From: Mesorhizobium sp. AR02
GTDB taxonomy: Bacteria; Pseudomonadota; Alphaproteobacteria; Rhizobiales; Rhizobiaceae
Assembly: GCF_024746835.1 (NCBI RefSeq)
Contig: NZ_CP080531.1
Coordinates: forward strand, 3,410,001-3,474,000
Length of the DNA stretch: 64,000 nt
Reading direction: 5' to 3'
The notes beneath the pieces are model-generated. The model made no database searches. It saw only the letters and a list, made by a program, of their open reading frames with translations, and was not told the origin of the DNA. Shown here piece by piece: positions 5,553 through 42,305 of the stretch; position 1 is the first letter of the stretch, and each line of letters begins with the position of its first letter. The translations under genes were made by a program, and so were the position numbers.

Positions 5553-5627
5553 GCGCCCATCGTCTAGCGGTCAGGACACCGCCCTCTCACGGCGGGAACA
5601 GGGGTTCGATTCCCCTTGGGCGTACCA
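5553..5627 (+). tRNA. tRNA-Glu (anticodon CUC)
   Basis: A cloverleaf can be drawn by eye. The acceptor arms are GCGCCCA (5553-5559) and TGGGCGT (5617-5623), the anticodon stem is CCGCC/GGCGG, and the seven-base loop CTCTCAC holds anticodon CTC at 5586-5588. The T arm carries GGTTCGATTCC, and the discriminator A and an encoded CCA close the gene. Confidence 0.95.
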
Positions 5628-13419: not shown

Positions 13420-13444
13420 GGAACAGAGGGGCGTTCACGGCGTT
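13420..13444 (+). promoter_or_regulatory. EcfG-type (general stress response) promoter for the gene at 13470
   Basis: GGAAC at 13420-13424 and GTT at 13442-13444 are separated by exactly 17 bases, the alphaproteobacterial EcfG consensus. The downstream start codon is 26 bases from the -10 element. It lies about 20 kb from the main stress-response cluster in this window. Confidence 0.75.
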
Positions 13445-13469: not shown

Positions 13470-13706
13470 ATGGCCACGTTCAGGGAAATGCGGGTTCTGG
13501 AGATCGTCGAAAGCGGCTCTCTGACCAATGACGAGAAGGTCGCCGAACTGCGTGAGATCGAATCCGAGGCGCGCGGCCTGCAGCGGGCCGCGTCGGAGAG
13601 TTCCATGGGCGATGATGACGGCTGGCAGGACGATCTGCGCCAGGTTCGCCTCGCGCTCGACAAGCTCGGAGCGAAGGAACCGAAGAAGGGCGCGGCATCG
13701 CTATAG
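13470..13706 (+). CDS. Small helical hypothetical protein, predicted stress-regulon member
   Basis: A 78-residue highly charged protein, predicted to be mostly alpha-helical (Glu, Arg, Ala, Leu) with an acidic Asp-Asp-Asp-Gly-Trp segment near residue 50 and a basic C terminus. There is no signal peptide or membrane segment, so it is cytoplasmic. CAGGAG precedes ATG 13470, and an EcfG-type promoter lies directly upstream. No family is recognised. Confidence 0.68.
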   Translation: MATFREMRVLEIVESGSLTNDEKVAELREIESEARGLQRAASESSMGDDDGWQDDLRQVRLALDKLGAKEPKKGAASL

Positions 13707-29432: not shown

Positions 29433-31073
29433 TTGAAGAAACTTTTTCCGATTGTCGCGTTCATCGCCGTTGCGCTGATCAGCATGACCATGGCGGGGTT
29501 CGCCTATTTCGCGACGCAGGAAGCCTCCCGCATCAAGTTCGAAGCGGCTGCCGACGACGCCCTCAACCGGATCGAGAGCCGGATCGACCTGCATTTGTCG
29601 CTGCTGCGCTCGACACAAGCCCTGTTCGACGCCCGCAATGGCGATATCTCCCAGAGCGAGTTCAAGGCGTTCTTCAACGCGCTGGATGTCGACAACAATT
29701 TCGCTGGCCTGCGCGGCATTGGCTTCCTCGGGCTCGTCAAGACGGGCGACGAAGCGGCGGTCGAACGCGACATCCTTCACGATTTTGGCGCCAGCCATCC
29801 GGTCTATCCGGACACGACGCAGCCCTGGCGCGCGCCCATCATGCTTTTCGAGCCGCTGGATCCGTCCAACCAGGCCAGCATCGGCTACGACATGTTCAGT
29901 GAACCGGTGCGGCGCGCGGCGATCGAGAAGGCAATGGCCGATGACCAGCAGCACGCGAGTGGGCTGGTGCAGCTGGGCCAGGGCACGGGTGCGACACAGA
30001 CCTTCACCGGCTTCCTGGTCCTCGTGCGGCTCAATGTCGAGACCGCGCCGGAGGTCATCAACGCATCGCGATCCTCGACTGCGGGCTTTCTCTACGCGGC
30101 CTTCCGGGCCCGCGACCTGTTCCAGATCGCACTCAGCCGCGCGCCGCTGCTGCCGGTCAACACCGAGATCTATGACGGCGCGGTGAACGGCGACAATCTG
30201 TTGTTCCGGTCGGAGACGCCGCCGGCTTCATCCTTTGGCGACCGGCTGCTGGTCACCCGCAAGATCACGGTGGCCGGCCGGCCGTGGACGGTGCTGTTCA
30301 GGCCGACCAGCGCCTTCTCGCAGCCGTCGTCGCGCGCCATACCGGTGATGCTGGGGCTGTTCGGCCTGCTGGCGGCGGGCGCCATCGCGCTGGTGGCGCG
30401 CTATCAGGAGCGGGCCTATGAGGCGGCATCGCGCCTGCACGAGACGACCGAAAAGAGCTTGCTCGAAAAAGACCTGATGCTGCAGGAGATGAAGCATCGC
30501 ATCAAGAATTCGATCACCAGGGTGCTGGCGATCGCGCGGCAGACGGCTTCGCGGGCGACCGACGTCAACGAGTTTTCGGCATCCTTCTCGGCCAGGCTGC
30601 AGGCAATGGCCGCCTCCCAGGACATGCTGACGCGCTCGCGCTGGCAGAAGGCCGATCTCGCCGACCTCCTGCGCATCGAGCTTGGCCAGGTGTTCGGCAA
30701 GGACCTGCCCGAGGGTCTGCTGTCGGGGCCGGAGGTGCTGCTCGACGAGACCACGACGCAGGCGCTTGGCCTGACCTTCCATGAATTGGCGACCAATGCA
30801 CTGAAATATGGCGAAGCCGGCAATTCCGCCAATTCGCTCAGGAGTGACTGGGCGCTCAAGGTGGACTGGTCGGTGGAAGGGCGTGGGCGCGAGCGGACGC
30901 TGGCGCTGAACTGGCGGGAGGCCGGAAAGAAGAAAGTCAAGGCGCCGGCCGAGACCGGATTCGGCACCAAGCTGATCGACCTCAACGTCACGCGCGAGCT
31001 GCGCGGCACGATCAAGCGCGATTTTCAGGCCGATGGTCTGAAGGTGGAAATACGAATTCCGCTCACGGGCTGA
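29433..31073 (+). CDS. CHASE-domain sensor kinase of the HWE family
   Basis: A 546-residue membrane kinase. It has a membrane segment at residues 5-27, a periplasmic CHASE domain at about 40-290, and a second membrane segment at about 300-325. The kinase core begins with His-Arg-Ile-Lys-Asn-Ser near residue 353. The N box reads [11 protein letters not shown], and Asn-Trp-Arg-Glu near residue 490 supplies the HWE-type Trp-x-Glu. The start is TTG 29433, inside the stop of a six-codon upstream frame (ATG 29416). HWE kinases commonly feed PhyR in alphaproteobacteria; phyR lies 3.5 kb away. Confidence 0.9.
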
Positions 31074-31488: not shown

Positions 31489-31815
31489 TTATTGTTGGCC
31501 AAGATAGTCTTTTTCTGGGCGCATTGCGTTGGATGCCATGACCAGGCTGGAAATTGCAAGAGAGGCCTCAAGGTTGCCATCGGGACGCACATTCCAGACG
31601 ATCTGGTCGTAGTCATCCTCGAGCGCGGGGTCGACAGCGAGGCACTTGGCGACGATATGCTGCGCCTGCCCTTGTACGTCGCCCATGGCGAAGGGACGTT
31701 CGGCAATGCATTCGTCGGCCGTTGCGAAAACACTGACCGGCACCTGCAGCTCACGGCACTCGGTCATCGAGTTGGTGCAGCCGATGACCAGCAACAATGC
31801 AGCGATGTGTTCCAT
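31489..31815 (-). CDS. Small lipoprotein-like secreted protein
   Basis: A 108-residue protein starting at ATG 31815. Residues 1-13 form a short hydrophobic signal ending in Val-Ile-Gly-Cys, a possible lipobox. The mature part has three more Cys (Thr-Glu-Cys, Asp-Glu-Cys, Ala-Lys-Cys), which could pair by disulfides. AGAGG lies 9 bases upstream. A GGAAC...GTT pair with an 18-base spacer lies at 31840-31865, one base longer than the EcfG promoters nearby. No family is recognised. Confidence 0.65.
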   Translation of the reverse strand: MEHIAALLLVIGCTNSMTECRELQVPVSVFATADECIAERPFAMGDVQGQAQHIVAKCLAVDPALEDDYDQIVWNVRPDGNLEASLAISSLVMASNAMRPEKDYLGQQ

Positions 31816-31946
31816 GGCGACATGTCCTCTCGCCACAATAACGGCCCACATCGGCCAAAAGTTCCTGAGAGGTCGGTGTGACACGCGAATAATGCCGCTG
31901 CAGCAAGCGGTTAAACACCGCGCACTATTGCCGGCAGGGATTTCGG

Positions 31947-32237: not shown

Positions 32238-33266
32238 TCACTGCGTCTCGAAATTGCTGTGCGGGACGACAAGGCGGTATTCAAGGTGGCCGTCCGCGAT
32301 GTCGAGGCTCGCGGTTCCGCTGAGCGATGCTGGCACCACCCGCTCCAGCGCGACGCTGCCGAAACGTTTTTGATTCCGACCGCTATTGGTTCCGATGGTT
32401 TCGGCCCATGTCAGCGACAGGGCAACTTCGCCAGCGGCGGTGTTGAGATTGGCGGTCACTTCGACGAATCCATCCGGCCGGGACAAGGCGCCGTAGCTGA
32501 CCGAGTTGACGGCAAGCTCATGCATCGCCAAGCCGATATGCAGCGCGGCATTGGGATTGAGATAGGGGTTGGCGCCCCGGAAGCGAAGGCTGTGCGATGT
32601 GTTCGTCCCATAGCGGCCGACCTGGCTTATCACCAGTTCATGAAGGGCCGCACCGCGCCAGTTCGAGGAGGTCACCAGATCCTGGGAGGAGGCCAGCGAC
32701 TGCAGCCGGCCGCGAAAGCGTGTCAGGAAGTCGCCGATGCCGTCGGAATAGCGACCGGTCTGGGTCGCGATACTCTGGATGATCGCCAGGAGATTCTTCG
32801 AGCGGTGGCTGACCTCGCGCAGCAGCGTTGTCAGTGTCTGTTCGCGCCGCTTCTGCTCGGTTGTCTCGACCATGGTGGTGACGACACCTTGCACGTCGCC
32901 GGCGTCGCCCCGGTCGGCATCGACCCAAATCTGAAACCAGCGCACGCCATTCTCGACCGGAACGCTGATCTCAAGGCGCTCTGGATTGCCGCTCGCAACC
33001 ACGTCGCGCTTGGCGACGCTGATGCGGTCGGCCTGCGCCACCGGCAGAATGCCATTGCCATCGGAATTGTCCGAGGCCCAGGGCGCACGCATGTTGCGGG
33101 CCCATACAGTTTTCATTTCGCGATCCTGATAGAGGACGGAAATGCCGGCGTTGTGCAGTGCGTGGAGAAGAGCCCGGCCAAGCTGCATGCCACTTTCTGC
33201 CGGATGCAGGGCGATGACTTCGTCGCTCCGTGCGCCTTCCGTTTTATCTGCAGTCCTGGAGCGCAT
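32238..33266 (-). CDS. PAS-containing HWE-family sensor kinase, stress-regulon member
   Basis: A soluble 342-residue kinase. One PAS domain (about residues 30-135) is followed by the phospho-acceptor box Glu-Val-Ser-His-Arg-Ser-Lys-Asn near residue 150. The N box reads His-Glu-Leu-Ala-Val-Asn-Ser-Val-Ser-Tyr-Gly, and Thr-Trp-Ala-Glu supplies the HWE motif. An EcfG-type promoter lies 30 bases upstream. It is one of three HWE kinases within 10 kb of phyR and could act on it. Confidence 0.88.
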   Translation of the reverse strand: MRSRTADKTEGARSDEVIALHPAESGMQLGRALLHALHNAGISVLYQDREMKTVWARNMRAPWASDNSDGNGILPVAQADRISVAKRDVVASGNPERLEISVPVENGVRWFQIWVDADRGDAGDVQGVVTTMVETTEQKRREQTLTTLLREVSHRSKNLLAIIQSIATQTGRYSDGIGDFLTRFRGRLQSLASSQDLVTSSNWRGAALHELVISQVGRYGTNTSHSLRFRGANPYLNPNAALHIGLAMHELAVNSVSYGALSRPDGFVEVTANLNTAAGEVALSLTWAETIGTNSGRNQKRFGSVALERVVPASLSGTASLDIADGHLEYRLVVPHSNFETQ

Positions 33267-33295: not shown

Positions 33296-33320
33296 AACGG
33301 CTCACTGTGAAATGGGTTCC
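33296..33320 (-). promoter_or_regulatory. EcfG-type promoter of the PAS-HWE kinase
   Basis: On the minus strand GGAAC (33320-33316) and GTT (33298-33296) are 17 bases apart, 30 bases before the start codon at 33266. Confidence 0.78.
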
Positions 33321-33358
33321 CAATGAAATTTCCCGGGAAAGCTGCCTCCTAAAGCGGT

Positions 33359-33397
33359 CCGCCGGACGGTGTCCCTTTGAAGGATACCGCCCGGCGG
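33359..33397. other. Long hairpin downstream of the DUF1328 gene
   Basis: A 16-base arm starting CCGCCGGACGG (33359-33374) pairs with 33382-33397, with two mismatches, around a seven-base loop. It lies between the minus-strand DUF1328 stop (33458) and the promoter of the kinase at 33266, so it may terminate DUF1328 transcripts. No clear T run is present. Confidence 0.5.
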
Positions 33398-33457
33398 TGG
33401 CTGGAAACCGTTTGAGGGGTGCGGCTTCCAGTGTTCGCTCGGAGAAGCACGTTCGCG

Positions 33458-33622
33458 TCACGCCCGTTTGAACAGGCCGGCCAGAAGCGAAATGACCAGG
33501 AAAGCGAGAAAGATGAAGAACAATATCTGCGCTATCCCGGCAGACGTGCCGGCGATGCCGCCGAAACCAAGCGCGCCGGCTATGATCGCCACGACGAGAA
33601 ATACGAGCGCCCAGTAAAGCAT
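33458..33622 (-). CDS. DUF1328 small membrane protein (YtjA family)
   Basis: A 54-residue protein with two hydrophobic helices separated by a [13 protein letters not shown] turn, the DUF1328 signature; it ends Leu-Phe-Lys-Arg-Ala. AAGGAG precedes ATG 33622. An EcfG-type promoter 31 bases upstream makes it a stress-regulon gene. Members are typical small inner-membrane proteins induced by stress, with unknown molecular function. Confidence 0.9.
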
Positions 33623-33652
33623 GGTTCATCTCCTTCCGAATGGTGCGATGAA

Positions 33653-33677
33653 AACGTGGGTGGATGCGGTTTGTTCC
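33653..33677 (-). promoter_or_regulatory. EcfG-type promoter of the DUF1328 gene
   Basis: On the minus strand GGAAC (33677-33673) and GTT (33655-33653) have a 17-base spacer, 31 bases before the start codon. Confidence 0.8.
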
Positions 33678-33825
33678 ACCATTTGCCGAAAAAGGCGATG
33701 CTTGCAAATGGTTCGGGCGGAGCCCCTCGAAATTCTCGGCTGATGGACCCGGCTGCCAAAAGGCCGCCCGATGCATCGCACCGGACGGCCTTTGATGTCG
33801 GGTATTTCTGCCGGAAGCAGCGAGA

Positions 33826-34620
33826 CTATGCGGCGGCCTTCGCCTGACGGTCGAAGAACAGCGCCTGGCTGATCAGCGCCTTGACCATGTCGGGATTGAA
33901 CGGCTTGGTCACCAGGAAGGCCGGTTCGGGGCGCTCGCCGGTCAGGAGGCGCTCAGGAAAGGCGGTGATGAAGATCACCGGCACGGAGGTTGACGACAGG
34001 ATCTCGTTGACCGCCTCGATGCCCGAACTGCCGTCGGCGAGCTGGATGTCGGCCAGCACCATCTTCGGCCGCGTCTTGCCGAACATCGTCACCGCTTCGG
34101 CGTGTGTGCGCGCCGTTCCAACGACACGATGACCGAGGCTCTCTACCATCTCTTCTATGTCCATGGCGATCAGCGGTTCGTCCTCGATGATGAGCACGTC
34201 GGTCGCCACCTGGCGGGAAATCTCATTGCTTGCCTGGGCAAGCAGCTCGGAGAATTGCTGGTCGCCGACGTCAAGGATCTCGGCCGCCTCGTCCTCGCTG
34301 AAGCCTTCGACGGCAACCAGCAGGAAGGCCTGGCGGGGAAGGGGCGCGATCGCATTGAGATTGGCGGCGGCGCGCTGCTCCCACGCCGATTGTGCCTGCT
34401 CCTGCGGCACGCGGATGGCGATCGAGGTGAAGAGTTTGGCGAAAACCTTGTACAGGGCGATACGGTCGCTCGAGGCCTCGGGGAAGATGTCGATGTCGGC
34501 GATGATGGCCTCAAGCATCGCGGCGACCAGCGCGTCGCCGCTCTCTTGCGATCCCGAGACGGCACGCGAGAAGCGGCGCAGGAACGGCAGGTGCGGTGCG
34601 ATGGTGGCGGATAAACTCAT
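33826..34620 (-). CDS. phyR: General stress response regulator PhyR
   Basis: A 264-residue anti-anti-sigma regulator. Residues 1-135 are a sigma-like domain resembling ECF regions 2 and 4 that mimics EcfG to bind NepR. Residues 140-260 are a receiver domain with phospho-acceptor Asp191 in Leu-Ala-Asp-Ile-Gln-Leu, switch Thr in Phe-Ile-Thr-Ala-Phe-Pro-Glu-Arg and Lys in Thr-Lys-Pro-Phe. The FATGUY-type extension Phe-Ile-Thr-Ala-Phe-Pro is intact. It is divergent from nepR-ecfG, with back-to-back EcfG promoters between them, the canonical gene order. Confidence 0.97.
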   Translation of the reverse strand: MSLSATIAPHLPFLRRFSRAVSGSQESGDALVAAMLEAIIADIDIFPEASSDRIALYKVFAKLFTSIAIRVPQEQAQSAWEQRAAANLNAIAPLPRQAFLLVAVEGFSEDEAAEILDVGDQQFSELLAQASNEISRQVATDVLIIEDEPLIAMDIEEMVESLGHRVVGTARTHAEAVTMFGKTRPKMVLADIQLADGSSGIEAVNEILSSTSVPVIFITAFPERLLTGERPEPAFLVTKPFNPDMVKALISQALFFDRQAKAAA

Positions 34621-34693
34621 GATAGGACGTCTCCCTCAGAATGACGTGATTGCACGGATTGCAGGTCAAGCTGATTGCAAGCCCCGCTAATAC

Positions 34694-34718
34694 AACGCGG
34701 GTTTTCCGAAAAAGTTCC
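34694..34718 (-). promoter_or_regulatory. EcfG-type promoter of phyR
   Basis: On the minus strand GGAAC (34718-34714) and GTT (34696-34694) are separated by 17 bases, pointing at phyR. Confidence 0.85.
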
Positions 34719-34727
34719 GCCCGATAT

Positions 34728-34752
34728 GGAACGAATAGGCGGGAACGGCGTT
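34728..34752 (+). promoter_or_regulatory. EcfG-type promoter of nepR-ecfG
   Basis: GGAAC (34728-34732), a 17-base spacer and GTT (34750-34752). The -35 boxes of this and the phyR promoter lie only 9 bases apart, back to back, so both genes are under positive feedback by EcfG. Confidence 0.87.
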
Positions 34753-34843
34753 TGGTGTCGGGATGGGCAACCAGAACAGGGTGCCGCTTGCCTTGTGTTG
34801 AGTTGAATATGAGCGGCCTGAGTGCTGGGAATATAAGGGCGAA

Positions 34844-35047
34844 ATGAAGGATATGACGAAAGATATTTTGACTGGCGCCGCGGGCAGGCGCCGGAACGGT
34901 GTCGGCGACCCCCTGGGGCCGAACTCCGAAATCGGGCGCAAACTCAAACAATATTATGACGAGCTGGTCTCCGACGATGTGCCGGATCGCTTTGCCCAGT
35001 TGCTCAGCCAACTGGAACAGACCGAACCCGCACAGAAGAAGGACTGA
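34844..35047 (+). CDS. nepR: Anti-sigma factor NepR
   Basis: A 67-residue NepR. The conserved core begins with Leu-Gly-Pro-Asn-Ser-Glu-Ile-Gly-Arg-Lys-Leu-Lys-Gln-Tyr-Tyr (residues 24-38) and continues through Val-Pro-Asp-Arg-Phe-Ala-Gln-Leu-Leu. These two helices wrap EcfG or, in stress, phosphorylated PhyR. Flanking ends are disordered and charged. It ends 3 bases before ecfG, so the two are translationally coupled. ATG 34856 is a possible second start. Confidence 0.95.
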   Translation: MKDMTKDILTGAAGRRRNGVGDPLGPNSEIGRKLKQYYDELVSDDVPDRFAQLLSQLEQTEPAQKKD

Positions 35048-35050
35048 GGC

Positions 35051-35602
35051 ATGGCAGCGGTCTCCCAAGGCTTCAAGACCGATCTGCTTGGGGCGATCCC
35101 GAGCTTGCGGGCCTTCGCCGTGTCGCTGACGCAGAATGCCGACAAGGCCGACGACCTCGTTCAGGAAACGCTGGTCAAGGCCTGGGACAAGCATGAGAGC
35201 TTCCAGCCCGGCACCAACCTCAAGGCATGGCTTTTCACGATCCTGCGCAATGAATTCTATTCGCAGATGCGCAAGCGCGGCCGCGAGGTGCAGGACAGCG
35301 ACGGCATCATGACGGCCAGGCTTGCCGTGCATCCAGCCCAGCACGGCCAACTCGACCTCAAGGATTTTCGTGGCGCCCTCGAGCAATTGCCGGAGGATCA
35401 GCGCGAGGCCATCATCCTCATCGGCGCATCGGGCTTCTCTTACGAGGAGGCCGCCGAAATCTGCGGTTGTGCGGTCGGAACGATCAAGAGCCGCGTCAGC
35501 AGGGCCCGCACGCGGCTACAGGAAATCCTGAAGATCTCCGGCGAGGACGAATATGGTCCCGATGCGATCTCGGTTCAGGTCACGGGGACGGCGGCGCACT
35601 GA
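35051..35602 (+). CDS. ecfG: ECF sigma factor EcfG (general stress response)
   Basis: A 183-residue ECF15-type sigma factor. Region 2 (residues 15-80) includes Ala-Asp-Asp-Leu-Val-Gln-Glu-Thr-Leu-Val-Lys-Ala-Trp. Region 4 (110-165) includes Gly-Phe-Ser-Tyr-Glu-Glu-Ala-Ala-Glu-Ile and Gly-Thr-Ile-Lys-Ser-Arg-Val-Ser-Arg-Ala-Arg. It should recognise the GGAAC-N17-GTT promoters found throughout 33-41 kb. Confidence 0.96.
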   Translation: MAAVSQGFKTDLLGAIPSLRAFAVSLTQNADKADDLVQETLVKAWDKHESFQPGTNLKAWLFTILRNEFYSQMRKRGREVQDSDGIMTARLAVHPAQHGQLDLKDFRGALEQLPEDQREAIILIGASGFSYEEAAEICGCAVGTIKSRVSRARTRLQEILKISGEDEYGPDAISVQVTGTAAH

Positions 35603-35645
35603 CGTGAGGTCTGGATAACGGGATCGGGATGCGGCCGCATCGATC

Positions 35646-36095
35646 TCATCCCGGAGAACCACGTTCATAGGCCAGCGCCACCGCTTCGACGAGATCTTCG
35701 CCTGAATAGGGTTTGGTGACCAGCCTTACCCCCGGAAAGGACGCCTTGATCTCGTCCGCATCCGAATAGCCGGAAGCAAACACGAAAGGGACGCCTGTTT
35801 CACGCAAGCCGGCAGCGAATTCGAGCGTCGAGGTGCCGCCCAGCATCAGATCGACGATGGCCGCGTCGAAACGCGTTGCGACCTTTCGGCCATCGATCTC
35901 GGCAAGGTCGCGGGCGACCACCACCTCGCCGGCCCCGTGGTCGCGGCAGAGCTGCTCGACATCCATGGCGATGAGGAACTCGTCCTCCAGGACAAGAATT
36001 CGCAAACCGTCAAGCAAGTGGGGCACAGGCAATCGCTCCTTGAAACGCCGGGAGTCATGATCGCAATTCGGCGCGCTGTCATTTAAAAAAGACAT
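35646..36095 (-). CDS. Single-domain response regulator
   Basis: A 149-residue protein from ATG 36095 (weak ribosome-binding site). A 28-residue leader precedes one receiver domain with Leu-Glu-Asp-Glu at the acidic pocket, phospho-acceptor Asp82 in Val-Asp-Leu-Met-Leu and Lys in Thr-Lys-Pro-Tyr. There is no output domain. Such regulators near phyR often act as phosphate sinks or competitors for HWE kinases; this role is inferred from position. It is convergent with ecfG and divergent from the Crp/Fnr gene. Confidence 0.82.
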   Translation of the reverse strand: MSFLNDSAPNCDHDSRRFKERLPVPHLLDGLRILVLEDEFLIAMDVEQLCRDHGAGEVVVARDLAEIDGRKVATRFDAAIVDLMLGGTSTLEFAAGLRETGVPFVFASGYSDADEIKASFPGVRLVTKPYSGEDLVEAVALAYERGSPG

Positions 36096-36107
36096 GTCAC
36101 CAGCGGC

Positions 36108-36132
36108 GGAACCCGATCCCCGGCAAAGCGTT
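36108..36132 (+). promoter_or_regulatory. EcfG-type promoter of the Crp/Fnr regulator
   Basis: GGAAC (36108-36112), a 17-base spacer and GTT (36130-36132), ending 43 bases before the start codon at 36176. Confidence 0.78.
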
Positions 36133-36175
36133 TGAAACCGGCCTGCCGAGCGGCAGGCTTTCGAAGGGGGTCGAA

Positions 36176-36937
36176 ATGCCAGGCCAGAATGCACGTTCTT
36201 TCGCAAGCCGCCAATACCCTTGCGAGAATTGCCCATTGCGGCCCCTGCCGGTCTTCCGGGAATTCGAAAAACAGGAACTCGCCTTCATCAGCACATTCAA
36301 GAAAGGGGAACTGGCGGTCGACAAGGGCGCCACGGTCGTCGTGGAAGGAAGCCACAGCGCCCACCTCTACACCGTGCTGTCCGGCTGGGCTTTCCGCTAC
36401 AAACTGTTGCCGGACGGCCGCCGACAGATCCTCAATTACCTCATGCCCGGCGATCTCATCGGGCTGCAAGGCAGCGTCATGGGGGAAATGCAGCATTCCG
36501 TCGAGGCCTTGTCGCCAATGCTGCTGTGCGTCTTCGAGCGCGACAATCTGCATGAACTCTACCGCAACCATCCGGGTCTTGCTTACGACATCACCTGGAT
36601 CGCGTCGCGCGAAGAACGCATGCTGGACGAGAACCTGCTCAGTGTCGGCCGCCGCAGCGCGATCGAGCGCGCCGCCTACCTTATCGCCTTCATCGGCAGC
36701 CGCGCCAAGGTCGTCGGACTGAACGGCAAGAAATCCATCCAGATTCCGATCACGCAGCAGCACATAGCCGATACGCTTGGCCTCTCGCTGGTTCACACCA
36801 ACAAGACGATCCGCAAACTGATGGACCGCAAGCTGATCCTCTGGCGCGATGGTGGTTGCGAGGTCGTCGACAATGAAGCGCTCAAGTTGCTCGCCGGCTG
36901 GGAAGGGCTGGGCGAGGGACGTCGCCCACTGATCTGA
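36176..36937 (+). CDS. Crp/Fnr-family transcription factor
   Basis: A 253-residue regulator. An N-terminal Cys-Glu-Asn-Cys-Pro-Leu-Arg motif recalls FNR, but the third and fourth cluster cysteines are not arranged as in FNR, so an iron-sulfur sensor is doubtful. The cyclic-nucleotide-binding fold covers residues 35-150. The winged helix (165-235) includes Ile-Ala-Asp-Thr-Leu-Gly-Leu-Ser-Leu-Val-His-Thr-Asn-Lys-Thr-Ile. Its EcfG-type promoter places it as a secondary regulator in the stress response. Confidence 0.88.
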   Translation: MPGQNARSFASRQYPCENCPLRPLPVFREFEKQELAFISTFKKGELAVDKGATVVVEGSHSAHLYTVLSGWAFRYKLLPDGRRQILNYLMPGDLIGLQGSVMGEMQHSVEALSPMLLCVFERDNLHELYRNHPGLAYDITWIASREERMLDENLLSVGRRSAIERAAYLIAFIGSRAKVVGLNGKKSIQIPITQQHIADTLGLSLVHTNKTIRKLMDRKLILWRDGGCEVVDNEALKLLAGWEGLGEGRRPLI

Positions 36938-37007
36938 GACGCACCTCTCGCCATGGATTGGCGATTGGTGCGTACGCGCATGTTTTCGGCTAGTTTGTTC
37001 CGATGCC

Positions 37008-37032
37008 GGAACCTTGAGACGCAAGGCGCGTT
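37008..37032 (+). promoter_or_regulatory. EcfG-type promoter of the DUF883 operon
   Basis: GGAAC (37008-37012), 17 bases and GTT (37030-37032), ending 30 bases before the start at 37063. Confidence 0.8.
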
Positions 37033-37062
37033 TGAAATCGAGCAATCACAAGGAGTTAAGCA

Positions 37063-37389
37063 ATGGCAACCGCCACAGGGAAGACCGCCAACGAAGCGCG
37101 GGCGAATTCGGACCTCGAAGCCGACATCCGACAGTTGAAGGCCGATATCGACAAGCTCACCAAGCAGTTGGCCAAGACCGGGGAACATGGCTATGGCACT
37201 GCCCGCCGCGCGGCCACCGAGGGCGTCGAGCAATTGCGCGCGCAGGGCGAAGCTGCGTTTGACAGCCTTCGCGGCAGTGCCAAGGACATCGAGGCGCAGT
37301 TGCTGGCAAATGTCCGCGAAAAGCCGGTGACGTCGCTGGCGATCGCCGCCGGCGTCGGCTTCCTCTTCGCGCTGCTTGCGCGTCGCTAG
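37063..37389 (+). CDS. DUF883 (ElaB/YqjD-type) membrane-anchored protein
   Basis: A 108-residue protein. Residues 15-85 are a charged helix (Asp-Ile-Arg-Gln-Leu-Lys-Ala-Asp-Ile). A C-terminal membrane anchor at residues 88-106 follows Arg-Glu-Lys-Pro, the DUF883 signature. E. coli ElaB and YqjD are stationary-phase inner-membrane proteins that bind ribosomes. It has an EcfG-type promoter and starts an apparent two-gene operon with the gene 12 bases downstream. Confidence 0.88.
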   Translation: MATATGKTANEARANSDLEADIRQLKADIDKLTKQLAKTGEHGYGTARRAATEGVEQLRAQGEAAFDSLRGSAKDIEAQLLANVREKPVTSLAIAAGVGFLFALLARR

Positions 37390-37400
37390 TTCCGCGCCAG

Positions 37401-37859
37401 ATGGGTCTGCTGGCATCCCTGCTCTCGGGTTTCGCCTCGGGTGAAACCGTGGCCGCCATACGCCGTGCGCGCACGGCGGCCATCGTCTATGCGCTTGCCG
37501 CGCTGGCGGCATTCTGCGGTCTCGGCTTCCTGGTCGGGGCAGCCTACATCTGGGCCGCGGCCCGCTATGGATCGTTCGCGGTGGCGCTTGGTTTCGGTGT
37601 CGGCTTTCTGGTGATCGCCGGCCTCGTTCTTCTGATCCATCGGTTGATGTCCGGCGCCCGTGCCCGCCGCGCGGCAAGGCGGCGCAAAGCCGACATGAAG
37701 GCGCTCGGCATCACGGCCGCACTCGCCGTGCTGCCGGCATTGCTCAAGGGAAAAGGTGGCCTCGGTGTCATTCTGGGCCCGGCCGTGGCGCTCGCCGCCT
37801 ATGCCATCTACCGTGAGAATGTGAAGCCCGACGATCCGGATGCCGGGGAGGGGAAATAA
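37401..37859 (+). CDS. Hypothetical membrane protein, operon partner of DUF883 gene
   Basis: A 152-residue protein with hydrophobic segments at about residues 25-48, 52-80 and 97-135, separated by an Arg-rich loop (Arg-Ala-Arg-Arg-Ala-Ala-Arg-Arg-Arg-Lys). It resembles the holin-superfamily/YqjE-type proteins often paired with YqjD-like genes, as in the E. coli yqjCDEK operon; that link is by context. The start lies 12 bases after the DUF883 stop. Confidence 0.7.
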   Translation: MGLLASLLSGFASGETVAAIRRARTAAIVYALAALAAFCGLGFLVGAAYIWAAARYGSFAVALGFGVGFLVIAGLVLLIHRLMSGARARRAARRRKADMKALGITAALAVLPALLKGKGGLGVILGPAVALAAYAIYRENVKPDDPDAGEGK

Positions 37860-37890
37860 CGTCGGCGCCCGGCCTCGGATCAAAGATCCG

Positions 37891-39423
37891 TCACTTCGAC
37901 AGGTCTTCCAGCGGCATCGATATCTGGGCGAAGACGCCCTCCGGCCGGAATTCATGGGTCACCTCGCTCGAGATGACCTTGGCCAGGCTGCGGCGGATGA
38001 GGATCGAGCCGAAGCCGTGGCGTTCGGGCGGTGCGACTGCCGGGCCGCCGCTTTCGCGCCAGGTCAACACCAGGCGTCGGTCGCGCTTCCTGCCTTGTGT
38101 CTTCCAGTCGAGATCGACCTTGCCCGATGCAATCGACAGCGATCCATATTGCAGCGCATTGCTGGCCAGTTCGTGCAGGATGAGTCCGAGGCCAACAGCC
38201 TGGTCGGGCGACAGCAACAGGTCGGCGCCGGAGATCGTGATGCGCGGCTGGTCGGCTGTGTCAAAGGGCCTGATCTCGATCTGGACGAGCTCGCGGATGC
38301 CGATGCCGCGCCACTCGCGGTCGGACAAGAGATTGTGGGCGATGCCCAGCGCCTGAAGCCGGGCGCTGAAGGCTTCGAGGAATTCGCTCGGCTGGCGGGC
38401 ATGACGCACGGTCTGCGTCGCCAGCGCCTGGACGGTCGCCAGCGTGTTCTTGACGCGGTGGTTGAGCTCGCGCAGCAAGAGCCGCTGCCGCTCGTCGCCG
38501 AGCTTGCGTTCGGAAATGTCGTAGTTGACGCCGAAGATCAGTGTCGGCTTGCCGTCGCCGTCGCGCTCGATGACGCGGCCGCGCGTGGCCACCCAGCGCG
38601 GCGGATGAAAGCCTTTCACCCGGTATTCGCCGAAATAGTCGTCGCTGCCGGACAAGGCATCGCGAAAGCGGGTTTCTGTCTGGTAGACGTCGCGCGGATC
38701 GATGGCGGTCAGGATGTCGCGCGCCCGCAGCCGGGTCGAGCGCGGCAGGTTGAACAGCTCCGACAGCCGGACATCGCATTCGATCATGTTGGTGCGGATG
38801 TCCCATGCCCAGCTGGCGAGCGAGGCCGCGTCGAGCGCGATGGCGCGCCGCTTTTCCTCGCGCGCCAGGGCTGCCTCGGCAATGGCGCCGCTGCGGGTCG
38901 CGTCCTTCAAGGTGAAGAGGCTGCCGGCAAGGCCGGCCAGCGTCTTCAACTGGTCGAGCTTGGCCTGCGATGGAAAGGCATGCGGCTTGCGGTCGAGCAC
39001 GCACAGCGTGCCGATCCTGGCGCCTGCCACCACCATCGGCGCGCCGGCATAGAAGCGCACATGATGCTTGCCGGTGACCAGCGGGTTGGCTTTGAAGCGC
39101 GGGTCCGTCGTTGCATCCGTCACCACCATGGGATCGTCGCCGGCGGCGATGGCGTGGGCACAGAAGGAGATGTCTGTGGCGGTCTCGGTTTCTTCGAGGC
39201 CAAAGCACGACTTGAACCATTGCCGCTCGAGATCAACCAGCGTAACCAGGGCGATCGGCGCCTGCATCACGGCCGCGGCAAGGCTGCTGATGCGGTCGAA
39301 ATCCAGGTCGGCCGCCGTATCCAGCATTTCCAGCCCATGCAGTACGGCCAGCCGGTCTTCGGCATTGACCGCTAGCGCCACTTTAGCCGGCAGGCTTGCC
39401 CCTATTTCCGCCTTGCTGTTCAC
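37891..39423 (-). CDS. GAF-PAS HWE-family sensor kinase
   Basis: A soluble kinase of about 510 residues. A GAF domain covers 20-165 (Asp-Ile-Ser-Phe-Cys-Ala-His-Ala-Ile, the light/redox-type GAF pattern) and a PAS domain 185-310. The kinase core begins Glu-Leu-Asn-His-Arg-Val-Lys-Asn-Thr near residue 325, with the N box His-Glu-Leu-Ala-Ser-Asn-Ala-Leu-Gln-Tyr-Gly and Thr-Trp-Arg-Glu. GTG 39423 is chosen because homology begins there; ATG 39471 is possible, but a start at 39504 would overlap the divergent promoter at 39497. It is the third HWE kinase near phyR and a candidate PhyR activator. Confidence 0.88.
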   Translation of the reverse strand: MNSKAEIGASLPAKVALAVNAEDRLAVLHGLEMLDTAADLDFDRISSLAAAVMQAPIALVTLVDLERQWFKSCFGLEETETATDISFCAHAIAAGDDPMVVTDATTDPRFKANPLVTGKHHVRFYAGAPMVVAGARIGTLCVLDRKPHAFPSQAKLDQLKTLAGLAGSLFTLKDATRSGAIAEAALAREEKRRAIALDAASLASWAWDIRTNMIECDVRLSELFNLPRSTRLRARDILTAIDPRDVYQTETRFRDALSGSDDYFGEYRVKGFHPPRWVATRGRVIERDGDGKPTLIFGVNYDISERKLGDERQRLLLRELNHRVKNTLATVQALATQTVRHARQPSEFLEAFSARLQALGIAHNLLSDREWRGIGIRELVQIEIRPFDTADQPRITISGADLLLSPDQAVGLGLILHELASNALQYGSLSIASGKVDLDWKTQGRKRDRRLVLTWRESGGPAVAPPERHGFGSILIRRSLAKVISSEVTHEFRPEGVFAQISMPLEDLSK

Positions 39424-39496
39424 CCCAAACCCCAAATGCCCATGCCGGCCGTCGCCGTCTTGCCGATCCATCGGCTCATGACAAGCTGGCCTTCCC

Positions 39497-39521
39497 GGAA
39501 CCATCCTAGCGAGGAACCGTT
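39497..39521 (+). promoter_or_regulatory. EcfG-type promoter of a 57-residue membrane protein gene
   Basis: GGAAC (39497-39501), 17 bases and GTT (39519-39521), ending 57 bases before the start codon at 39579. Confidence 0.77.
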
Positions 39522-39578
39522 ACCCGACCGTGATTTGCCGAGCGCGCCCGCAGGCGCGGAGCAAAACAAGGATCGGCC

Positions 39579-39752
39579 ATGACCAAGATCATTCCTCAGG
39601 ACAAAGCGCGGCAGGGGCGATGGGGCTGGCACGGCTTGCGCATCCTGATCGCCGCGCTGCTTCTGGCTTTCGCGGCCTGGGGCATCGCCGAGATCTACGG
39701 CGAGCTGGCCAAGACACCGGCGACGGAGCAAGGAAGTGCGCCGAGCGGCTAG
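39579..39752 (+). CDS. Very small membrane protein, predicted stress-regulon member
   Basis: A 57-residue protein with a basic N terminus (Lys-Ala-Arg-Gln-Gly-Arg-Trp-Gly-Trp), one hydrophobic helix at residues 20-38 and a short polar tail. AAGGA lies 7 bases before ATG 39579, and a perfect EcfG-type promoter precedes it. The combination of promoter, ribosome-binding site and membrane helix makes it credible despite its size. No family recognised. Confidence 0.72.
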   Translation: MTKIIPQDKARQGRWGWHGLRILIAALLLAFAAWGIAEIYGELAKTPATEQGSAPSG

Positions 39753-39781
39753 ATCTTCAGCCGTCATCATTCGAGATCGCA

Positions 39782-40702
39782 TCAGGCCGCCTTTGCCTCG
39801 GCAATGCTGGCCGGCACCAGGACATTCAGCGCGCCGGGCCGGATTTCAATCGTTGTCTCACGCTCGAGCCCGACCAGTTCGCCATCCATGACGGCGCGGA
39901 ACTTTCTGCTGCCGGAATGGATTTTCAGGACGGTCCGGTCGGATTGATGGATTTCGACATGCTCGTTGTCGCGCCATTTGCCGCGCGCCACATTGAAGAG
40001 GAACTTCACCAGTTCGGCGCGCTGCTGCGCCACCGTGACATAGATGCCGAGCACGCCGCCCGAAGGGTTGTCCGCATAGGGAAGATGGCCCTCGCCGAAC
40101 AGATTGTTGGTGACGCCGATGCCTGATATGCGCGCCGTCATCTCGGCTTCGCCGATGCCGAGCGTGACGTTCATCGCCGGCGGGTTCTTGATCGTCGCCC
40201 ACGCCGCCTTGGCCGAAGCCCCGATCTTGCCCAGGCGCGAACCGAATTCCATTCCCTGGCGCAGCTGCACCATCTTCGCATGCATGCCGATCGAGAACTG
40301 ATGGACGAAGGGCCGACCGTTGGCGATGGCCATGTCGACCGCGATGATCTCGCCGTCGGTGAAGGATTTCAGCGCGGCGTCAAGCGACTGCGGAATGCCG
40401 AGGCCACGCGCGAACAGGTTCATGGTGCCGGCCGGCAGTATGGCAAGCGCCTTTTTCTTACCCATCAGCCTGGCGGCCGCCGCTGAAATGGTTCCGTCGC
40501 CGCCACCTGCCAGCACGACATCGACGGTGCGGCGCGAAGCAGCGCTGTCGAGGCCTTCCACCACGTCCTTGCCGGCAACCACGTCGATGCTCAGGGAGTG
40601 GCCCGCCGCTTCCAGCGTCTGACGCATCCTGTCGGAAAAAGCGGCGAGGTCGGTGGTGCGCAAGGTGCCGCCGTCCCGGTTCAGCACCGCCGCAAATTTC
40701 AT
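39782..40702 (-). CDS. Diacylglycerol-kinase-family lipid kinase
   Basis: A 306-residue protein of the DAGK catalytic family (YegS/BmrU-like). The nucleotide loop Gly-Gly-Gly-Asp-Gly-Thr is at about residues 66-71, followed by Leu-Pro-Ala-Gly-Thr-Met-Asn-Leu-Phe-Ala-Arg. The C-terminal beta-sandwich includes Val-Met-Asp-Gly-Glu-Leu. It probably phosphorylates a membrane lipid such as diacylglycerol. An EcfG-type promoter lies 57 bases upstream, divergent from the PRC-barrel gene, which also has one. Confidence 0.87.
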   Translation of the reverse strand: MKFAAVLNRDGGTLRTTDLAAFSDRMRQTLEAAGHSLSIDVVAGKDVVEGLDSAASRRTVDVVLAGGGDGTISAAAARLMGKKKALAILPAGTMNLFARGLGIPQSLDAALKSFTDGEIIAVDMAIANGRPFVHQFSIGMHAKMVQLRQGMEFGSRLGKIGASAKAAWATIKNPPAMNVTLGIGEAEMTARISGIGVTNNLFGEGHLPYADNPSGGVLGIYVTVAQQRAELVKFLFNVARGKWRDNEHVEIHQSDRTVLKIHSGSRKFRAVMDGELVGLERETTIEIRPGALNVLVPASIAEAKAA

Positions 40703-40758
40703 GCCCTGCTCCGTTGGCTCAGTCCAACCCGGCCGGGGCGCGCCCAGCCGAAGGCTGA

Positions 40759-40783
40759 AACGCGGCGAGGCAGGAAAGGTTCC
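40759..40783 (-). promoter_or_regulatory. EcfG-type promoter of the lipid kinase
   Basis: On the minus strand GGAAC (40783-40779) and GTT (40761-40759) are separated by 17 bases. Confidence 0.78.
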
Positions 40784-40868
40784 GGCAGCGCGGAATCAGC
40801 GGTTGCAACCCATGGCTCTCATGCTTCCGCTGGTGGTTTTGAGTACGAATGCCGGGACGTGTTTTGTC

Positions 40869-40893
40869 GGAACAACAGCATGGTCACGACGTT
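40869..40893 (+). promoter_or_regulatory. EcfG-type promoter of the PRC-barrel gene
   Basis: GGAAC (40869-40873), 17 bases and GTT (40891-40893), 90 bases before the start codon. Confidence 0.8.
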
Positions 40894-40982: not shown

Positions 40983-42305
40983 ATGATCCGCACCCTTTTA
41001 GCCACGACCGCACTCGCAACGCTGATCGCGACCGGCGCCTTCGCGCAGAGTGCGGCGAGCCCCGCACCTGCCGCCGCGCCGTCCGTCCAGGAGCCTGCGG
41101 CCACCGCTCCGGTGCCGCGCGCCGAAGGCAGTATCGTCACCAACATCATCGGGGAATCCGTCTACAACGGCACCGGCGATGATGCCGAGAGCATCGGCAA
41201 GGTCAGCGATGTCGTCTTCGACAAAGATGGCATGGCGAAATCCGTCGTCATCGGCGTCGGCGGCTTTCTGGGCATCGGGGCGAAGAATGTCGCCTTCGAC
41301 TACGACAAGCTGCAGTGGGCCGAGAAGAACGGCGATCGCTGGCTGGTTGCCCAGACAAGCAAGGATGAACTGACGGCGCATCCGGAATTCGACAGCAAGC
41401 CCTATGGGCCCGCGCCGGCACCCGCCACTTCGCCGGATGCAGCAGCGCCCGCGACAACGGATACCGCGCAGAAACCTGTCGACATGAATGCCGCCCCGGC
41501 CGAACCGGTGAAGCGCGCCGACGGCAACCTTGCCACCAACATCATTGGCGAGACCGTCTACAACGGCACCGGCGATGACGCCCAGAACATCGGCAGCGTC
41601 AACGACATCGTGCTGACGAGGGAAGGCAAGGCCGAATCCCTGGTCATCGGCGTGGGTGGGTTCCTTGGCCTCGGTGCCAAGAACGTCACCTATGATTTCA
41701 GCAAGGCACAGTGGGCCGAGAAGAACGGCGACCGCTGGCTGGTTGCGCAGACCACCAAGGAAGAGCTGCAGGCGCAGCCGGATTTCAACCGCAAGGCCTA
41801 TGACCCGGTGCCGGCAACGACGGCATCCAATGAGCCGGCGGCAACCGCGCCGGCCGCTACCACGGCTCCTGCTGCCGCACCCGCGGATAGGACTGCCGAG
41901 GCGCCAGCGGCTACGGCCCCTGATGCCGCCGCTCCCGACCAGACACAGACTGCGGCCATCGACAAATCGACGCTGACGGAGATGCCGGTCGGCGAGATCA
42001 GAGCCGACGATCTGAAGGGCGCGACGGTCTATGGCGCCAATGACGCCAAGGTCGGTGAGATCGGCGATGTCGTGCTGACGCCTGACAAGAAGACCGATGC
42101 GGTGATCGTCAATGTCGGAGGTTTCCTTGGCATCGGCCAGAAGGAAGTGGCGGTCGGCCTGGATAATCTGAAGTTCATGACCGACAAGGACGGCAAGAAG
42201 TATCTTTACACGACCTTCACCAAGGAACAGCTCGAGGCACAGCCTGCCTATGACAAGGGCAGTTATGCCGAGAAGCGCGACCAGCAGCGGTTGATACTTC
42301 GGTAG
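40983..42305 (+). CDS. Secreted protein with three PRC-barrel repeats
   Basis: A 440-residue exported protein. The signal peptide is residues 1-21 (Ala-Phe-Ala-Gln). PRC-barrel repeats lie at about 45-140, 178-270 and 330-425. The first two are very similar, each with an Asn-Ile-Ile-Gly-Glu opening, Val-Ile-Gly-Val-Gly-Gly-Phe-Leu-Gly and Trp-Ala-Glu-Lys-Asn-Gly-Asp-Arg-Trp; the third is diverged. Linkers are Pro/Ala/Thr-rich. Periplasmic location is inferred. The stop codon directly abuts an octamer tandem array. Confidence 0.88.
   Translation: MIRTLLATTALATLIATGAFAQSAASPAPAAAPSVQEPAATAPVPRAEGSIVTNIIGESVYNGTGDDAESIGKVSDVVFDKDGMAKSVVIGVGGFLGIGAKNVAFDYDKLQWAEKNGDRWLVAQTSKDELTAHPEFDSKPYGPAPAPATSPDAAAPATTDTAQKPVDMNAAPAEPVKRADGNLATNIIGETVYNGTGDDAQNIGSVNDIVLTREGKAESLVIGVGGFLGLGAKNVTYDFSKAQWAEKNGDRWLVAQTTKEELQAQPDFNRKAYDPVPATTASNEPAATAPAATTAPAAAPADRTAEAPAATAPDAAAPDQTQTAAIDKSTLTEMPVGEIRADDLKGATVYGANDAKVGEIGDVVLTPDKKTDAVIVNVGGFLGIGQKEVAVGLDNLKFMTDKDGKKYLYTTFTKEQLEAQPAYDKGSYAEKRDQQRLILR

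Follow-up and report, generated by a model that had tools for sequence, protein, structure and literature searches.

The switch of the general stress response (GSR) in alphaproteobacteria is usually drawn as three core genes, phyR, nepR and ecfG, with a scattered regulon. Here we describe a probable GSR locus in a 64,000-nucleotide stretch of Mesorhizobium sp. AR02 (C2:3410001-3474000 of a four-contig, 8.91-Mb genome; hereafter the window), in which these genes lie within a cluster of short elements of the type read by the sigma factor EcfG. By PhyR, the closest named loci are those of Mesorhizobium, the first ones with 98-99% identity.

The reported consensus of Rhizobium etli EcfG1 is GGAAC-N16-CGTT (PMC3892343). 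As far as the accessible part of that paper describes it, the R. etli phyR-tcrY/nepR-ecfG1 locus shares with the window the three proteins, the divergence of phyR from nepR-ecfG, the motif and a kinase gene after phyR; and it too has an extra EcfG-driven unit just beyond the kinase gene, the noncoding RNA (ncRNA) ReC64. Unlike R. etli, the window has seven more EcfG-type units and a DUF1328 gene between phyR and the kinase gene, and its unit beyond the kinase gene, unlike ReC64, precedes a conserved protein open reading frame (ORF). For the RpoE2 regulon of Sinorhizobium meliloti, the available parts of the reports (PMC3616915, PMC6180224) give mapped starts of rsiB1 and rsiA1 behind RpoE2-dependent promoters, and list as RpoE2-dependent SMc01509-SMc01508 (near rpoE2, as inferred from the locus number) and a PRC-barrel gene, all of which resembles the present locus; unlike here, these parts describe no target cluster round rpoE2. 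The EcfG regulon of Sphingomonas melonis likewise includes cAMP-binding (Crp-type) and PRC-barrel targets, with motif enrichment at up to 100 bp from the start, whereas its spacing is looser (N17-20-GTT) and the portion of the paper available to us describes no cluster (PMC6599016). Judging from the accessible text of these reports, the ingredients are already known, namely the switch, its motif, autoregulation and target families that include PRC and Crp-type proteins (PMC6599016, PMC6180224). Our literature search met with no account in which EcfG promoters are concentrated round phyR across a whole order while the members change; subscription papers and supplements were outside its reach, and one may be in print.

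EcfG-type elements in the window and in the genome

Nine exact GGAAC-N17-GTT sites were found between positions 33296 and 40893 of the window (Table 1). All are intergenic and, as the original prediction had it, each is aimed at the start codon of one gene; the distance is 29-91 nt, and the genes are those of an HWE histidine kinase (K1), a DUF1328 protein, PhyR, NepR, a Crp/Fnr-family regulator, a DUF883 protein, a protein of 57 amino acids (aa; m57), a lipid kinase and a PRC-barrel protein. The sites match the EcfG motif given there, GGAAC-N16/17-GTT; since the base before GTT is C in all nine, however, GGAAC-N16-CGTT is the better and finer description. The whole window gave 13 matches with N16-18 before GTT, whereas 100 shuffles gave 3.5 on average and 9 at most. 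We conclude, with a probability of about 0.9, that phyR and nepR-ecfG are transcribed from divergent back-to-back EcfG promoters, and that this predicted GSR locus is ringed by eight more EcfG promoters, each serving one short unit, including a tenth element described below.

Whether the motif is enriched here had been left to a genome-wide scan, and its density proved not to be equal elsewhere: nine N16-CGTT sites were found in the 7.6 kb of the island against at most three in any other 7.6 kb (the densest, on C2 and on C4, with all 119 sites of the genome located). The island, 0.085% of the sequence, holds 9 of these 119 sites. For N17-GTT, about 0.25 sites would be expected per 7.6 kb and nine were observed; when the 93 C2 sites were placed at random 20,000 times, no 7.6 kb ever received more than five.

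The total counts are another matter. The N17-GTT string has 288 matches in the 8.91 Mb against 428 for its reversed control, and the N16-CGTT string 119 against 171. Because the string is rarer than the reversed control, it proves nothing by itself, and its concentration is the unusual part. That the nine are chance matches of a short motif, a reading which the lack of genome-wide enrichment would favour, has a practically negligible probability, as it leaves the position and strand of all nine unaccounted for; it is refuted by the clustering together with the selective conservation of the motif letters given below.

The surroundings of the N16-CGTT sites were classified with a home-made ORF caller, the N17-CGTT sites being outside this classification. 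Among the other 110 sites, 63 are intergenic before an ORF start (the promoter-like class, with the ORF start within 250 nt of the site), 13 are intergenic without an ORF and 34 are coding. By portion, the first 90 non-island sites divide in this order into 50, 7 and 33, the last 19, all on C4, into 12, 6 and 1, and one in the window, at 13420, stands before an ORF. The island accounts for 9 of the 72 promoter-like N16-CGTT sites of the genome. Nineteen ORFs behind non-island sites were scanned with Pfam, and Ku, two CsbD, an AI-2E transporter, PAP2, three DUF982, DUF378, DUF3309, DUF3008 and a sugar-dehydrogenase-like protein were above cut-off; the remaining ones were below cut-off or had no Pfam match.

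Further sites were seen outside the island. The one at 13420-13444 (+), an exact GGAAC-N16-CGTT, is 25 nt ahead of a 78-aa ORF (13470-13706) without Pfam match. A looser group at C2:5500225-5524571 (L236, L237) consists of five such sites spread over 24 kb; each is intergenic and precedes a small ORF, and DUF378, DUF982 and DUF3309 are among these ORFs. On the plasmid-like contig C4 (357,630 bases), 20 of the 119 sites are found, and they lie about five times as densely as in the remaining genome; 13 of the 20 are intergenic before an ORF, and two sequences are present twice or nearly twice, so that part of this may be duplicated DNA. On the 95-kb contig C3, a CsbD gene has an exact EcfG-type element (L265, C3:5020).

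Conservation among related loci and a tenth unit

The window was compared with 80 Mesorhizobium-type loci, fetched by PhyR alone; they are close relatives, because the best 80 of 562 confirmed matches were taken. Gene order is nearly identical within them. phyR, nepR, the DUF1328 gene and a K1 match are present in all 80, and K1 keeps its side and strand with respect to phyR in 78 (exceptions L079 and L080). A recently acquired mobile genomic island carrying its own stress genes is very improbable given this 80/80 presence in loci fetched by phyR, and about 26 kb separate the window's only tRNA gene (5553-5627) from the nearest element.

An element was counted where N15-N18 preceded GTT within 250 nt upstream of the gene (Table 1). 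Non-member genes of the locus almost lack it: ecfG 0/79, the 152-aa gene 0/78, a second HWE kinase gene (K2) 0/46, a CHASE-HWE kinase gene 0/72, a sulfatase gene 0/66 and a receiver gene 2/79. Upstream regions were then aligned from orthologues of at least 60% identity (54-80 loci per gene), the presence of the motif being no criterion of selection. Mean identity to the window was 97% for the nine motif letters, 61% for the spacer and 52% for the flanks, and in nine of the ten upstream regions no other offset was as conserved as the motif. A conserved GGAAC-N16/17-CGTT was found upstream of all ten units, weakest for crp. Since the elements are clustered in the genome, their letters are conserved over the flanks and non-member genes are almost without them, it is very probable that they serve as EcfG promoters and that the locus formed round phyR-nepR-ecfG is real.

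The tenth unit lies beyond K1. The original prediction was right on the nine elements and drew the stretch too narrow, as an element with N17 before CGTT widens the island. It stands 24 nt ahead of the ATG of ORF10, which has a Shine-Dalgarno-like sequence. An ORF10 homolog is present in 72 of the 80 loci, with the element upstream in 66, half N16 and half N17, and the differences among loci concentrate at third codon positions; neither Pfam nor NCBIfam gave a match for ORF10. An ncRNA comparable to ReC64 of R. etli was also weighed for this site, and a protein is preferred because a conserved ORF follows the element; Rfam at gathering threshold found tRNA alone in the window, and ReC64 may not be in Rfam. 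The lipid kinase element alternates among relatives between N16-CGTT and N17-CGTT in the same way, as would be expected if a single sigma factor can use either spacer.

The cluster in other genera and families

A wider set of 60 genomes was examined over 20 kb around phyR, 40 from the family and 20 from other families of the order; these loci were hand-picked from PhyR matches, all have a good PhyR match and two share one genus. They contain 313 N16/N17-CGTT sites against 18.4 expected from each genome's own site density (genome sizes rounded), and the reversed control has 31 in the same loci, where about 25 are expected from its genome-wide count. P<0.001 was reached in 42 of the 60. Site density falls from 9.2 per 10 kb beside phyR to 0.4 at 9 kb, and 203 of the 313 sites lie over 1 kb away from the phyR midpoint. 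In 20 of these genomes, picked for long contigs, 136 sites are in the core 20 kb and 18 in the surrounding 40 kb, five of those in one flank, and density 10-30 kb from phyR is near background. Pooling the N16 sites that had sufficient flank (243) gave AT-rich bases after GGAAC, G before CGTT and a purine about 9 bases past CGTT, a profile that looks like that of real promoters.

By a home-made ORF rule, the genes behind the 313 sites are DUF1328 (34), phyR (34), nepR (29), DUF883 (29), PRC (26), AI-2E transporter (18), CsbD (17), ORF10 (14), crp (8), K1 (8), lipid kinase (5), m57 (4), ecfG (3), K2 (1) and 82 others, with one site without ORF. The units of DUF883, PRC, AI-2E, CsbD and DUF1328 vary in strand or in side, and CsbD units adjoin phyR in 16 of these 60 wider loci. 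When only units that combine an exact site with a recognised family are counted, the 60 loci show 52 ordered arrangements, a number to which lost sites therefore add. The cluster is thus kept across the order in many genera with changed content, order and strand, and genes appear to have been recruited repeatedly to the neighbourhood of the regulator.

The proximity could also be frozen synteny, in which ancestral neighbours were never separated and closeness carries no function. We take this explanation seriously without favouring it: the nearly constant order in the 80 Mesorhizobium-type loci speaks for it, but in the 60 wider loci DUF883 units with an element lie on the phyR strand in 15 and opposite in 14, PRC, AI-2E, CsbD and DUF1328 units swap side and strand, and other families enter. 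Moreover, the window's own genome has AI-2E and CsbD genes, perhaps the orthologues, that carry EcfG-type sites at a great distance from the locus.

Several observations weigh against reading the elements as EcfG promoters of one locus, beginning with the genome-wide rarity of the string noted above. In the wider set, 18 of the 60 loci miss P<0.001 and four of them have zero sites. In the 80 loci, K1 is without element in 22 (four of these have a one-letter-off form upstream, and two of the K1 matches are not true neighbours) and the PRC gene in 14 of 74. Upstream of crp the motif does not stand alone in its conservation, 5 of 125 offsets being as good, and 11 of the 55 loci with crp lack the element; the other 25 of the 80 gave no accepted crp match near phyR, and some of these contigs end early. 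Five of the 11 (L001, L004, L008, L009 and L026) have a Crp/Fnr protein 88-96% identical. crp is the weakest member among the ten units and seems to be a target entering or leaving the regulon.

The last such point is that two sigma factors 38-39% identical to EcfG could share promoters with it. These possible EcfG paralogues, at C2:6696992-6697444 and C2:80042-80518, are among 13 sigma-like matches besides EcfG in the genome, and S. meliloti RpoE6, in the accessible text of PMC6180224, has 27 of 40 targets in common with RpoE2. That the promoters belong to one or more other ECF sigma factors, and not mainly to EcfG, is nevertheless improbable, as the sites centre on the genome's only close EcfG and, according to the part of PMC3892343 available, carry the EcfG1 consensus. 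Returning to EcfG, the original inference of a coherent locus reaching beyond phyR-nepR-ecfG is supported at the sequence level by density, intergenic placement, motif conservation, per-gene retention and the pooled promoter-like profile.

Genes of the locus and proposed mechanism

Table 1. Elements and genes of the putative EcfG locus (window positions; distance is from GTT to the start codon; fractions are loci with the element or gene among the 80 related ones)
Feature	Position	Strand	Distance (nt)	Remarks
Tenth element, EcfG-type, GGAAC-N17-CGTT	31840..31865	-		motif letters 97% conserved against 39% for flank, 54 aligned loci
K1 element, EcfG-type	33296..33320	-	29	58/80
DUF1328 element, EcfG-type	33653..33677	-	30	79/80
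phyR element, EcfG-type	34694..34718	-	73	80/80
nepR-ecfG element, EcfG-type	34728..34752	+	91	80/80
Crp/Fnr element, EcfG-type	36108..36132	+	43	44/55 with gene
DUF883 element, EcfG-type	37008..37032	+	30	77/78
m57 element, EcfG-type	39497..39521	+	57	60/66; remaining 6 have GGAAC-N16-CATT
Lipid kinase element, EcfG-type	40759..40783	-	56	63/66: 42 N16-CGTT, 21 N17-CGTT
PRC protein element, EcfG-type	40869..40893	+	89	60/74
ORF10, conserved 108-aa protein, putative tenth target	31489..31815	-		N terminus lipoprotein-like by eye (LVIGC)
K1, HWE histidine kinase, candidate PhyR kinase	32238..33266	-		PF07536 E=1.4e-22
DUF1328 small membrane protein	33458..33622	-		PF07043 E=8e-16
phyR, anti-anti-sigma response regulator	33826..34620	-		PF22029, PF22233, PF00072
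nepR, anti-sigma factor	34844..35047	+		PF18557 E=2e-16
ecfG, sigma factor	35051..35602	+		no own element; Sigma70 r2 + r4_2, NF009199 above cut-off
Single-domain receiver	35646..36095	-		without element; PFVFASGY (FATGUY-like); PF00072
Crp/Fnr-family regulator	36176..36937	+		PF00027, PF13545
DUF883 (ElaB/YqjD-like) protein	37063..37389	+		PF19029/PF05957 and weak ElaB match, all below cut-off
152-aa membrane protein	37401..37859	+		no family match; 78/80
K2, GAF-PAS-HWE kinase	37891..39471 (start 39471 or 39504)	-		without element; PF01590, PF07536; PF08447 just below cut-off
m57, 57-aa protein, one hydrophobic stretch	39579..39752	+		66/80; codon-position bias
YegS/BmrU-type lipid kinase	39782..40702	-		PF00781, PF19279
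Three-PRC-barrel protein	40983..42305	+		PF05239, 3 stretches; signal-peptide-like N terminus (by eye)

PhyR was identified by its sigma-like domain plus receiver, and nepR is directly before ecfG with 3 nt between them; we take EcfG to be of group ECF15, by context. The "PAS-HWE kinase" of the original prediction holds as to HWE, and no PAS domain was found in K1 by Pfam at 1e-3. Its DUF883 label rests on two Pfam matches that are both below their cut-offs. The DUF883 gene is immediately followed by the 152-aa membrane protein gene (37063-37859), and the two are probably co-transcribed; by position the 152-aa protein is presumably YqjE-like, and we take the gene order to resemble that of E. 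coli yqjD-yqjE. In E. coli these two genes are under RpoS, a stress sigma factor unrelated to EcfG. Domain-library scans gave no family match for m57.

Three HWE-family kinase genes are less than 6 kb from phyR (29433-31073, 32238-33266 and 37891-39504), with an EcfG-type promoter at K1 only; that at 29433-31073 is the CHASE-HWE kinase. The receiver gene, listed from 36236, would overlap crp, and the start at 36095 is preferred; it shares one intergenic region with crp. FATGUY receivers such as SdrG and MrrA have the motif PFXFATG(G/Y), according to the available part of PMC5964349, whereas the receiver here, with its similar PFVFASGY, has Ser in place of Thr and no EcfG element. PF[VI]FA[ST]G was found in the receiver of 75 of the 79 loci with a match, was absent in 2 and went unjudged in 2 for low identity.

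The elements, their positions, their conservation and their clustering are observed; that EcfG is used, how the kinases are wired and which way the feedback runs we infer. In the proposed scheme, stress would lead HWE kinases (K1, and perhaps also K2 and the CHASE-HWE kinase) to phosphorylate PhyR; phosphorylated PhyR would remove NepR from EcfG, and EcfG-RNA polymerase would then read GGAAC-N16/17-CGTT. EcfG would raise PhyR, NepR-EcfG and K1, and the EcfG-type promoter of K1 suggests positive feedback on sensing. The Crp/Fnr regulator would form a second tier, and the envelope and small membrane proteins, that is DUF1328, DUF883 and its 152-aa partner, m57, PRC-barrel, ORF10 and the lipid kinase, would also be raised.

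It is a tentative and rather unlikely suggestion that proximity to ecfG is itself selected, with nearby promoters responding earlier or at lower EcfG levels. There would then be a local supply of scarce, NepR-buffered EcfG, and stress genes would be repeatedly drawn near phyR-nepR-ecfG and leave again with their EcfG promoters kept.

With 9 of the 72 promoter-like N16-CGTT sites of the genome, a sizeable share of the predicted direct regulon lies within about 8 kb of the switch. The locus may therefore serve as a natural system for asking whether bacterial regulators keep their targets nearby for a physical reason. It also names the poorly known genes ORF10, m57, DUF1328 and the DUF883 pair as likely stress genes, and may offer a route to annotating the stress response in uncharacterised genomes.

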